A stretch of 64,000 bases of DNA from an uncultured Candidatus Melainabacteria bacterium (GCA_949902595.1 CATLDC010000004.1:62001-126000), one strand, 5' to 3'. Shown: positions 34,420 to 39,367, numbered from the stretch's first letter. Notes: generated by a model not told the origin, from the letters alone. Translations and numbers: made by a program.

Positions 34420-35523
34420 AAATTCTGAAAATGTGGAATTGTATAAGTATAGTGGTTCAAGGATTGATGTATGAATATTAGTACAAACCTCGCATCTCTC
34501 GTCACGCAAAATTCACTCAAACGTTCAACATTAAATCTTAATGAAGCCATAGAGCGCATGACGACTGGCTTCAAAATTAACCATGCAAAAGATAACGCAG
34601 CCAACTACTCTATTTCCAATAAATACTCAACCAAAATAAGCGCCTATGAAGTGGCGGAAGACAATGCCATGATGGGGCTTGACTTAGTCAGCACAGCCTC
34701 GGGCACCCTCGACCTTATTGAAGAGCGCGTTTCGCGACTAAGATACCTCCAGGAACAGGCTCTGAACGGTACAAATGACCAGAAGGCTCTGGATGCAATC
34801 AATGCAGAGTGTAACACTATTGTAGATGAGATTAACCGCATATATTCAAGCACGGAATACAATAACATCCCGTTCTTTTCTTATGAGGATAATAATGCAC
34901 CTTCTGAAACAGTAAAGAAAGCTGACTCATCAACGATTTTCGGTCAGCTTGGGATTGGAGACAGCAGTTTTTCTATCTATGATTCAAGCAATAACCTTGT
35001 AATTACCTATGATACGCTTGAGACTGACAGTATTCACGACTTTTTTGATTCACTTGCAAACCATGGATTGCAGGGGACAATTAATAATGGCGTGATTTCT
35101 ATTACTTCACCTGACGGGAGCTATATTGAAGGCGATTTGGCGGATGCACTGGGGATTTCCAAAATTACGACCCCGTATATAGAGTCCACAAACCAGTCGT
35201 CTACTGCTGATATTACTTACACACTTGTAAGCAATGCGACTGAATCAACTACGTTTGGGGAACTCGGCGCTTCCGGCACTGTTACTATTCGTGACAAGTA
35301 CGATAATCTTGTCGGAAGCTTTGAAACAGATTCAACAACCACTATTTCAAGCTTTTTTAACCAGCTTGATGCACTAGGGATAAGCGGAAAACTGACTAAC
35401 GGTGTGATAACTCTAACAAGTTCTGCCGGTAATTATGCAGCAGCGAGCGGAGCTATTGCGGATTTGGGGATAGGGCTTGTGACTTCTGACGGGAAGCGCA
35501 CAACCGGTGTGGAGCAGACTTCG

Positions 35524-35700
35524 ACCTTGAAAGTAACCACTACCACCTCATCAACCCAGACAGACACTATCTGGCAGACGACAACAACAGAGTCAACAGC
35601 AACCAACACAATCTGGACAACCACGACTACTTCTACGACCCAGACCAATACAATCTGGGTTACAACAACTACGTCAACTACGACCACTAACACTATTACA
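35524..35700 (+). repeat. Thr-rich tandem repeat, first block
   Basis: Encodes three to four copies of a ~17-residue unit of the form T-x-T-D/N-T-I-W-x-T-T-T-T-S-T-T. It resembles O-glycosylated mucin-like linkers. Related blocks follow near 36850-36930 and 37970-38230. Confidence 0.8.
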
Positions 35701-36059
35701 ACTCCAGGGACTTATGTAACACAGAGCACTGGTGCTTTCTTGAAAGAGATAGCGCATATTGATACCACCAATATGACTGCGCTTTCAGAAGTTGCCAACA
35801 AAAATGTTGATCTTGCAGCCGGTACTTATGCAATAAAGACTGTCGAGGATTTAGAAATCCTATCTCAGATGAGCAATGACTACTTGCTTAATAACACTTA
35901 CACATTTGTTTTAGGTTCTGATTTGGACATGGCTGTAGCCGGATATTCTGCTGAAACCGGAAAGAGTTGGACTCCGATTATAAATGGCGGGAGTTATTGT
36001 TTTGACGGTAACGGTTATGCGATTTCTAATTTATACATAAACGCTCCGGAAAGCTCTTA

Positions 36060-36690
36060 TGTAGGACTTTTTGGTTGTTTATCCGGCGGCGGGGTGACAA
36101 TAAAAAATCTTGGCCTGGAAGATGTCTATGTCTCAGGTAGAGACTTTGTTGGCGGCTTAATTGGCGGAGGAGACAGCTTTACAGCAGAAAACTGCTATGT
36201 TACAGGGCATGTGATTGGTAATAATACGGTCGGCGGTTTAGTTGGACAGGGTGGATATACAACTATTTTTGGTTGTTATTCAGAAGCTACTGTAAATGGA
36301 AATTCGACTGTTGGCGGGTTTGGCGGACTTATAGATACAGACAGCAAGATAGAACAGTGTTATTCGGCTTCCAATGTTACAGGTACTCAAAATGTTGGTG
36401 GATTGCTAGGACAGTTATACATGAATGCAGAAATGTATGATTCTTATGCAATGGGAAATGTTACCGGAGGTGATAATACCGGCGGCTTGGTAGGTATCTC
36501 TAGTGATAACGGACATTTTGAACATGTTTACGCTTCAGGTACTGTTTCTAGCTCTTCTGCAAGTGCAGGCGGGCTTATAGGGTTTTCTGATATGAATACT
36601 TATGTGTATGATGCATACGTTTTGGTTAGTAATGCGTCTACTATAAGCGGAATATTTTGCGGATATAACGAGAATGAGGTTTTAGAATTA
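36060..36690 (+). repeat. GLUG repeat block 1 within the giant flagellin
   Basis: Encodes about six repeats containing GG(L/F)(I/V/L)G spaced 25-30 residues apart with intervening CYxxGxVxG segments, typical of GLUG motifs of surface adhesins and some secreted peptidases. Confidence 0.75.
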
Positions 36691-37254
36691 GACCACTGTT
36701 ACTATAATCAGGGACTAGAATATGACTATGTCGGTTCTATGGGCGAAAATGGAAGCTTAACATCTTCTAATATCCAGTCATATACAGGCTCTGTGCCGTA
36801 TGTATTTACTAAAGCAACAAACTATCAAACAACAGTTGGCTCAAAGACTGAGTACATCGTTAGTACAGTTTGGCAGACAATGACGACTTCTACAACCCGA
36901 ACAGAGACTGTTATGGTCTCTACGACTTTGAGCGAAGAAAGAACAGATTTTTTGGCGGTTTTGACTCAGAAAGATACGAGCGGATTGCTGTCTGTATCAG
37001 AAATTAACGGAAAATCTTCGTTTGATGGTATCACATGTGCTGTACGTACGACAGAAGACTTGCAGCTTATTGCACAATTGACGAATGCCGGTAACGAGTT
37101 TTCAACAACGACTTTTATTCTTGCAAATGATTTGGACTTCACCGGCATTGATAATTGGACAAGTATTGGAAACGAGTTTTATGGTTTTAAAGGTTCTTTT
37201 GATGGTAACGGTTACGTAATATCTAAGCTTAATATTGATTCGACAAATGACCGT

Positions 37255-37800
37255 ACCGGTTTGTTTGGTACTTTGTATGGTTCAGTCTCAAATTTGGGGT
37301 TGGAAAATGTTAATGTAAGCGGAGGCACTTATTACACAGGCGCTCTGGCAGGCTATGCAGAATCCTGTCAAATCACCAATTGTTATGCAATAGGTCAGGT
37401 AAAAGGTGCCAAGTACTATGTTGGCGGGCTAATCGGAGGAGGTACTTATGTCGGTATTTATAATTCATACTTCGGAGGTGAAGTCAGAGGATATGACTCA
37501 GTAGGTGGAATCGCCGGTGTGTTGACTATGGCCAATGTTAGTTCTTGCTTTTTTAATGGTACCATTTTGGGTAACGAGCAGTTAGGAGGAATCACCGGGT
37601 ATTATGAAACCGAGCCTGGTTTTGATACGGTTGTAGATTGTTACGTCAAAGGTAAAATTAATCTTCTTTCAGGCTCACCTAATAATGTAGGCGGGTTGTT
37701 TGGCTATTTGGAATGGGCAGAACTGAAAGTTAATCATTGCTATGTTTTAACAGAATCTCCAAGATTAAACGGTCTATTTGCCGGTGGCTTAAATGAGTAC
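37255..37800 (+). repeat. GLUG repeat block 2 within the giant flagellin
   Basis: Encodes about five repeats such as GGLIGGG, GGIAGVL, GGITGYY and GGLFGYL with CY/CF-containing spacers. It parallels block 1 and both are preceded by a matching segment (FDGNGYxIS.L.I), indicating internal duplication of a large module. Confidence 0.75.
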
Positions 37801-37969
37801 AGCACTATTACTATTGAAAATTCTTATTATGGAACATTCTATCAAAGTTCAACCCTCCCTACATACGACGGTGGTCTGAAAGCTACTACCCAAAGCCAAT
37901 TATACACAGGAACCCATCCTTTTACACCAGACAGCACTTCCTTTTTGATGTATACAACAATTACTGAAC

Positions 37970-38230
37970 CCAAAACTCAAACAACAACTGTCTGGATAAC
38001 CACAACATCAGAGGCTACCAGGACAGAGGCTGTTACAACACCTATTTCAAATACAATCCTTGAAACAGAAACTATATGGGAAACTACAACCACTGCGACT
38101 ACTAATACAGAGACCCTGTGGGAAACCACTACAACCTCGACTACTGAAACTGAAACAATCTATACTACAACCACGACTTCCAGCACCCAAACCAGTACAA
38201 TTTACACCACAACAACGAGCGGTGCAACCG
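37970..38230 (+). repeat. Thr-rich tandem repeat, third block
   Basis: Encodes about five units of the form ET-E-T-(I/L)-W/Y-x-TTTT-x-x-T, closely related to the first block. At DNA level the units are imperfect, so slippage would be limited. Confidence 0.75.
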
Positions 38231-39367
38231 GAACCTCTACTTTCAACGATATCGGACTTGCCTCGAATGGCTACATAACAGTGTATTCAAATGGCACCAG
38301 TGCAATAATGACCGTAAAAACGAGTTCAACACTTGCGGATTTGACCGGATTTTTAAGCAGCCATGGTATTACTGCTTCAATTTCGAACGGAGTTCTCGAA
38401 GCCAGTCCGCAAACAGGCTCTTATATTACCGGCATGTCAGAGAATTTGCGTACTGCGCTCGGCTTTGACCCATCGAATTATACAGTGTCAGAAGGCAAAG
38501 GCAACACTTCTTCCAACAAGTATTCAAGCACTATTAATACATCATTGACCGGTGATGTTACATTTGCTAGTGCGGGCGTTTCCGGCGGAACAATTAAGGT
38601 GCATAAAGCTAACGGAAGCTATGCTACTATTAAGATTACAGGCACAGACACCATGCAAACATTGCAGGAAAAGCTCGAGGGCTTAGGATTTACAACAGAT
38701 TTTTCTAATAACAAGCTTACCGTAAACGGCAAAGGTAATCTTTATATTGAAAGCAGCACACTTTCTCTCCTTAATCTTGGTGCAGTGAATAAAGTTGAGA
38801 AAACTAATGTAACAAACTCATCAAGCAATCGTTTAACCTACAAAGAGGCGCTCATGACTCTTGCTGCTGTAGTGCCTGATGAAGCACCTTCACTTGTTTT
38901 CAGGTCGGTATAGATTCTAATGAGGCAAGTCAAATTAGTGTAAGTATCGGGTTTTCTATTAACAATATTGAACAATTCAGAAATATCGGGCTTGATTTTG
39001 ATACAGATTATTTAACAGAAATAGATACTCTTCTCTCCCGTATCAATAAAAAACAAACAGAGTATGGTGCCGCGCAAAACAGGCTTGAAAGTGTGCTTGA
39101 AGAGATTTCGATTCATTATGACAATCTTGTGTCATCACGTTCAACGATTAAAGATGCTGACATCGCAGAAGTATCCAGTGAATACATTCGTCAGCAGATA
39201 CTACAGCAAGCTTCTGCTACTTTGATGGCTACGGCGAATCAGAATCCGGCGTTTGCTCTGGGGTTGTTGTAGAACAATTGCCTCCTCGCGCATTCTAGCT
39301 CCCCAGCTGCTCTTGTTGCGCAAACTCATTTTTTGCGCTACAATAGGTGAAAGCAAGGAGAGAGTTT

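Follow-up and report, generated by a model that had tools for sequence, protein, structure and literature searches.

When a gene with flagellin ends and an adhesin-like insert lies among genes unrelated to flagella, what does it encode: one odd protein, the remains of one, or a member of a larger family? Such a gene was found in the window (the whole stretch of 64,000 nucleotides that was analysed), which belongs to a genome of Candidatus Gastranaerophilales (2.1 Mb, 41 contigs, 99.8% complete). Melainabacteria with flagella were already known (PMC3787301). A first-pass annotation had described a giant, possibly accessory flagellin, with ordinary flagellin ends around an insert of repeats, GLUG blocks and Thr-rich linkers. 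This description was largely borne out, but the gene was found to be frameshifted, and the main point is a flagellin family rather than one odd gene.

Layout of the gene and the break in its frame

The features, all on the + strand and numbered from the first nucleotide of the window, are as follows.

34428-34450, +: promoter-like element AAAATGTGGAATTGTATAAGTA (upstream-sequence similarity only)
34471-38913, +: open reading frame of 1,480 aa, comprising the flagellin N end and the whole insert, with an out-of-place stop at 38911-38913
34477-34881, +: Flagellin_N, aa 3-137 (PF00669, E 6.1e-27)
34924-35187, +: 85-aa repeat 1, a FliD-type domain, aa 152-239 (repeat profile, shuffles)
35239-35496, +: 85-aa repeat 2, aa 257-342 (repeat profile, shuffles)
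35503-35724, +: Thr-rich linker 1, aa 345-418, period about 14 residues (TNTIWxTTTTSTT; composition)
35740-36800, +: GLUG beta-helix block 1 (Glug E 6.2e-16; model pLDDT mostly 80-90; fold of the IgA1 protease beta-helix)
36808-36915, +: linker 2, Thr-rich but weak (composition; model pLDDT below 50)
36943-37950, +: GLUG beta-helix block 2, paralogue of block 1 (Glug E 5.6e-12)
37963-38226, +: Thr-rich linker 3 (composition)
38230-38493, +: 85-aa repeat 3, aa 1254-1341 (repeat profile, shuffles)
38551-38802, +: 85-aa repeat 4, aa 1361-1444 (repeat profile, shuffles)
about 38896-38901, +: single frameshift in a short T run (frames compared with the intact relatives L033 and L015)
38883-39272, +: C-terminal part in the other frame, with Flagellin_C at 39015-39269 (PF00700, E 7.6e-17)

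As assembled, the window gene is a frameshifted flagellin gene and not an intact flagellin. It has about 1,600 codons in total, split over two frames; around the frameshift, the upstream frame ends in ...SLVF and QVGIDSNEAS opens the downstream frame, as in the intact relatives. Both of the ordinary flagellin ends described earlier were recovered, at the E values listed, but the PF00700 half is not in the same frame as the PF00669 half. Because the frame breaks before Flagellin_C, the product of the gene as assembled would be without the C-terminal D0/D1 half, and the window copy should therefore not polymerise. Programmed frameshifting at 38896 was considered and rejected: inspection by eye showed no recognisable slippery heptamer, and a shift is not required in the intact relatives.

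The architecture was compared with that of L033, from another species of the genus; this gene encodes 1,235 aa in one open frame, with 40% identity to the window protein across 905 aa. The order of its parts is flagellin N end, three 85-aa repeats, GLUG block, Thr-rich linker, two repeats and flagellin C end. L033, being intact, shows that this architecture truly exists and that the frameshift is peculiar to the window copy. Intact relatives longer than 1,000 aa include those of 1,056, 1,058, 1,103 and 1,235 aa.

The genes scanned on both sides (GNAT, DUF212, polyprenyl synthetase and RsgA on one; ClpX-type zinc finger, RuvX, Clp_N and TilS on the other) are housekeeping genes or of no known role. 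None is flagellar, in agreement with the first-pass annotation.

Domains of the insert and of the giant FliDs

All the elements of the huge adhesin-like insert were recovered between the flagellin ends. The two GLUG blocks are real, and block 1 is 35% identical to block 2 over 313 residues (Z 30). The duplication of a large module that had been proposed holds for these paralogous domains; the segment preceding them is no special shared module, since it is the start of the complete beta-helix domain and is also found in sister flagellins. Thr and Ser together make up 61% of aa 345-418, 38% of aa 780-805 and 49% of aa 1165-1300, so that three Thr-rich linkers can be recognised, the middle one being the weakest. 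It is possible that these linkers are glycosylated. The genome has a gene for a NeuB-type sugar-acid synthase, and nothing ties it to the window protein.

The beta-helix was examined in L089, an intact sister of the GLUG-type gene L018 (50% identity over the length of the latter). The full-length model of L089, built from four alignment rows, had a mean pLDDT of 57.5 and low confidence outside the beta-helix; residues 150-340 form a right-handed beta-helix with pLDDT of about 90, the rest being poor. The best structural match of this helix was 3n6z of B. ovatus (Z 26.1, 251 residues, 3.4 A), and IgA1 proteases matched with Z 21-25, as against about 16 for the next fold, that of unrelated beta-helices. 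When the two GLUG blocks of the window were modelled together, the same proteins were retrieved (3n6z with a Foldseek E of 1.4e-6).

The likeness to IgA1 proteases raises the question of whether the inserts act as enzymes, either an M26-type IgA1 protease or a polysaccharide lyase, giving catalytic filaments like those of flagellinolysin. The fold is that of the IgA1-protease beta-helix, Peptidase_M26_N (Pfam) reaches its cut-off in L017, and Eckhard et al. 2017 (PMC5595980) listed 17 M26-annotated flagellins as putative enzymes. The match is, however, confined to the non-catalytic N-terminal region, the catalytic M26 domain is not among the Pfam matches listed, and HEXXH occurs in no large ORF of the GLUG flagellin family in the genome. 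We regard enzymatic inserts as very improbable. A catalytic IgA1 protease in particular was rejected because HEXXH is missing, and a flagellinolysin because the insert is without a gluzincin HEXXH domain. As HEXXH was absent from every large flagellin ORF of the host genome, the GLUG domains look like binding or spacer domains and not like proteases.

The four repeats of about 85 residues, described earlier as related to flagellin-IN motifs, are real (mutually 17-43% identical, Z 4.5-17.8 versus shuffles), but Pfam Flagellin_IN (PF07196) did not match them up to E 10. A profile of the repeats instead found aa 140-220 of the ordinary FliD of the host genome (E 4.4e-8 in a small sequence set). 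By this sequence comparison, the repeats are homologous to an internal domain of FliD. One copy is present in the ordinary FliD and at least 28 in a FliD of 4,032 aa from the same genome. A PDB sequence search with the repeat profile gave chance-level matches only.

The ordinary FliD is encoded by an open frame of 593 codons. The first giant FliD of the genome has 4,032 codons and carries both FliD_N and FliD_C; the second, cut by a contig end, has at least 3,797 codons with FliD_C and is the tail-to-tail neighbour of L016, a GLUG flagellin. Open frames of at least 1,000 codons with FliD_N were present in 33 of the 58 genomes in the genus sample, the longest having 6,148 codons; these sizes are open-frame lengths, with only a few sequences followed over their full length. 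In the class sample, FliD frames above 1,000 codons were found only within the same taxonomic family. GLUG repeats also occur in several giant FliDs, one of which (L129) has 21 stretches.

The flagellin family and the state of the window copy

In the host genome, FliP, FliR, FlhB and FlhA form one cluster, and another cluster contains FliF, FliH and a further FlhA; there is also a second FlhB, with FlgL-like and FliD genes elsewhere. A complete absence of flagellar export genes, which would have told against a flagellin, is excluded by the export-gate genes, FliF, FliH and FliD of this genome. Flagellin_N had 19 matches. These reduce to about 16 flagellins when pieces are joined and the FlgL-like L025, so called from its general look and without a FlgL profile, is removed. 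Five of the 16 are standard (open frames of 282-404 codons), 10, including the window gene, are of GLUG type, and one (L020, about 2,600 aa) has another type of repeat. Glug or M26_N exceeded the Pfam cut-off in the window gene, L015, L016, L017, L019 and L021, while L013, L018, L022 and L026 were assigned to the GLUG type by homology. L022 and L026 are both truncated where their contigs end, within a shared N-terminal stretch; their starts are probably the N-terminal pieces L023 and L024, which lie at the ends of other contigs. The remaining seven GLUG-type members were assembled whole, and in all seven the N and C ends are in one frame. No GLUG-type member of the genome is larger than the window copy.

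A tree built from the D0/D1 ends placed 27 of the 31 large flagellins, which came from many species, in one clade that contains no standard flagellin (support 0.74). The window insert was matched in 44 of the 58 genomes of the genus, some of the matches being giant FliDs. Beyond the genus, full-length relatives were found in further genera of the same family and, outside it, in a single genome from a second family of the order; for other families of the class, the matches listed cover the N end only, in frames of ordinary size. In many genera of the same taxonomic family, this search, which covered the class, did not find the GLUG flagellins.

The site of the window gene was compared with that in a sister species, G023, whose surrounding DNA is about 96% identical. 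There, rsgA is directly followed by the ClpX-type zinc-finger gene and the flagellin is missing. Either one lineage gained the gene or the other lost it. No flagellin was seen beside rsgA in the other genomes examined (up to 1.5 kb on each side); the neighbours of rsgA also differ there, so only G023 is informative on the empty site. One of about 16 flagellins in its genome and missing at the same site in a sister species, the window gene is most likely accessory, as had been suggested.

In its assembled form, the window copy is either a pseudogene of recent origin or the product of an assembly error. It may be a dead remnant, a recently inserted or lost accessory flagellin that is drifting after the frameshift and has no present function; its interest would then lie only in showing the fast turnover of GLUG flagellins. 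The frameshift precedes the C-terminal domain, the same site is empty in the 96%-identical G023, the leader contains no simple repeat (poly-G) of the kind described below, and there are other broken members (L053 with an in-frame stop, and one match in G045 with an internal TAA). The roughly 1,600 codons show, however, no lesion but the single frameshift; the sequence downstream of it is free of stops and keeps Flagellin_C at E 7.6e-17, and a promoter-like element is still present. We hold a dead remnant to be only a little short of evenly probable. Alternatively, the frameshift may come from faulty sequencing or assembly, in which case the gene would encode a complete flagellin of about 1,600 aa; this is a serious possibility but falls somewhat below even. 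Every fully assembled sister flagellin in the genome is in one frame, the frame resumes exactly where the intact relatives continue, and the lesion lies within a short T run; against this, the run has four bases, and single-base errors in such runs are uncommon in short-read assemblies. The window gene is most likely an accessory, lineage-specific flagellin, presumably adhesive, that is currently broken or mis-assembled.

Leaders, proposed function and known systems

Comparison of upstream sequences showed that the leaders of sister GLUG flagellins contain an element like AAAATGTGGAATTGTATAAGTA, namely AAAATGTGGAATTATATAAC; the AAAATGTGGAATTGTATAAGTA-type element is present in part before one standard flagellin, L014. 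Five related sister leaders have a poly-G tract about 30-55 bp upstream of the start codon, with 11 G in L017, 15 in L018, 8 in L019, 11 in L023 and 11 in L024, lengths that come from a short-read assembly and may be wrong; within a single strain, the tracts were not seen to vary in length. The contig of L021 ends inside a poly-G run. The whole host genome has about 14 separate runs of at least 9 G. Runs of at least 7 G within 140 bp upstream were found for 10 of 34 large flagellins and none of 34 standard ones (p 0.0009), counts that include related sequences; within the genome, the tract-bearing leaders are partly copies of one another and not independent. When the host genome was left out, the excess was weak (4 of 24 versus 0 of 29, p 0.036).

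These observations suggest that the poly-G leaders are candidate contingency loci, at which expression may be phase variable. The tracts could also be a neutral consequence of G-rich leaders, or arise from the assembly, and we consider this quite possible, though somewhat less probable than not. Other poly-G runs are found in terminators and in the intergenic DNA of unrelated genes, and one contig ends in 65 G, which is clearly artefactual. Moreover, when leaders with tract lengths of 0-18 were folded as RNA, the pairing of the ribosome site hardly changed; since it is nearly constant with tract length, no translational-switch mechanism is proposed from the folding. Neutrality is harder to reconcile with tracts of 8, 11, 11, 11 and 15 G at the same position in five leaders, and with their recurrence before large flagellins of other species but before none of the 34 standard ones. 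An upstream reading frame across the G tract was also considered; by eye, it has a stop before the flagellin start, and therefore a change in tract length would not simply fuse the frames.

On balance, we think it probable that the GLUG flagellins are adhesive accessory subunits of the filament, some of them perhaps switchable, of which the window copy is a broken or mis-assembled example. In this flagellin family of the Gastranaerophilales, the outer D2/D3 region has been replaced by GLUG-type right-handed beta-helix domains, flanked on both sides in the largest members by FliD-type domains. Intact members would probably be exported by the flagellar apparatus and, by means of the D0/D1 ends common to both, may co-polymerise with the standard flagellins, of which they would be a minor complement. 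The beta-helices would then project from the filament and might serve to bind gut surfaces or glycans, possible targets being mucus, food particles, epithelium and other microbes; the giant FliD caps, made partly of the same domains, could do likewise at the filament tip. Poly-G in several leaders may give stochastic on/off or graded expression and so a changing mix of filament surfaces. The case for adhesion is drawn from the domain type and the known adhesive roles of flagella and FliD; the FliD of Pseudomonas aeruginosa, for example, is a mucin adhesin, a flagellar tip protein used for adhesion. It may be noted that proteins with a beta-helix of this type include enzymes, that the helix is also found in protein regions with no adhesive role, and that a shared fold shows no function. 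More tentatively, the whole could form a switchable adhesive flagellum, with phase-variable beta-helix flagellins on the shaft and, at the tip, tentacles formed by FliDs several thousand residues long, both built from one pool of interchangeable domains.

In gut bacteria, flagella are commonly seen as motors and TLR5 ligands. The intact sisters and the giant FliDs suggest that flagella may serve touching as well as swimming: if the proposal is true, about 10 adhesin-like and 5 ordinary flagellins, together with giant caps, would make up an adhesive, possibly switchable, flagellar surface. In the literature searched, with most subscription journals outside its scope, we found no account of GLUG flagellins as a multi-copy family, of so large a FliD, or, in this lineage, of flagellin paralogues with poly-G leaders. 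The FliDs reach about 4,000 aa in this genome and open frames of more than 6,000 codons in its relatives, compared with roughly 600 for an ordinary one.

Diversity in the variable region of flagellins is known (PMC7018530). The giant flagellins of Bermanella and Oleibacter (PMC6248924) exceed 1,000 aa, as do intact relatives of the window gene, and resemble the window gene in their ordinary D0/D1 ends and in duplication inside the insert. Their inserts, however, consist of DE/DX regions found only in flagellins, whereas here GLUG beta-helices and FliD-type domains are present; and the Bermanella protein was shown to build a filament, while the present flagellins are a multi-copy accessory family. 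The flagellinolysins (PMC5595980) likewise have a foreign folded domain in the hypervariable region, but they possess the peptidase motif, and the GLUG flagellins have the beta-helix only. The beta-helix of IgA1 protease (M26) and that of 3n6z from B. ovatus have the same fold as the GLUG domain, at 22-24% sequence identity to it; in the GLUG flagellins it is placed between flagellin ends, without the catalytic part. The 17 flagellins annotated as Peptidase_M26 in the survey of Eckhard et al. 2017 (PMC5595980) may be open to another reading, as the N-terminal region of Peptidase_M26 is itself a GLUG-type beta-helix, and in the GLUG family the matching region is this non-catalytic helix.

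Very large flagellins and their surroundings

Very large flagellins of 1,361-2,619 codons form a second group, with another type of insert.

L020:3413-11269, very large flagellin, own genome, contig C1
L130:2311-6450, minus strand, very large flagellin
L131:1409-5491, minus strand, very large flagellin

Their inserts consist of GDGND-like or NNTV-like repeats in long arrays that look like beta-rolls. When they were searched against Pfam, no clear family was obtained, DUF3060 being slightly under the cut-off in L020. Runs of 8-18 G lie ahead of large flagellin genes in several species, at the sites below and at others, and a CATGCTTTTC-like motif often precedes the run.

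L018:3323-3337, poly-G run 5' of large flagellin gene
L055:64-81, poly-G run 5' of large flagellin gene
L130:6549-6559, poly-G run 5' of large flagellin gene

In the sister species, the site that holds the flagellin in the window carries ~190 bp of different sequence (L122:6917-7111). Part of this looks like a small inserted element, and adjoins a AAAGAATTGTAACAATTT stretch that is shared.

Giant filament caps

Two giant genes for the filament-cap protein FliD were observed in the own genome.

L174:4104-16199, minus strand, FliD, 4,032 codons, contig C21
L181:545-11935, minus strand, FliD, at least 3,797 codons, contig C16

The bulk of the 4,032-codon protein consists of repeats homologous to the 85-residue repeats of the window flagellin. 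In relatives, open frames of more than 6,000 codons occur.

Export genes

FlhA and FlhB each have two genes in the 2.1 Mb own genome, both FlhA genes being complete.

L124:9888-11978, FlhA, complete
L125:12117-14210, FlhA, complete
L124:8705-9793, FlhB
L183:2983-4071, FlhB
L126:8160-9683 (also L029), minus strand, 508-codon open frame, FlhA-profile match, contig C2

For the 508-codon frame, a match to the FlhA profile over its C-terminal half is reported (E 2e-45). Having both FlhA and FlhB twice may mean that the genome encodes two export systems for flagella, or a single one next to a type III system of another kind.
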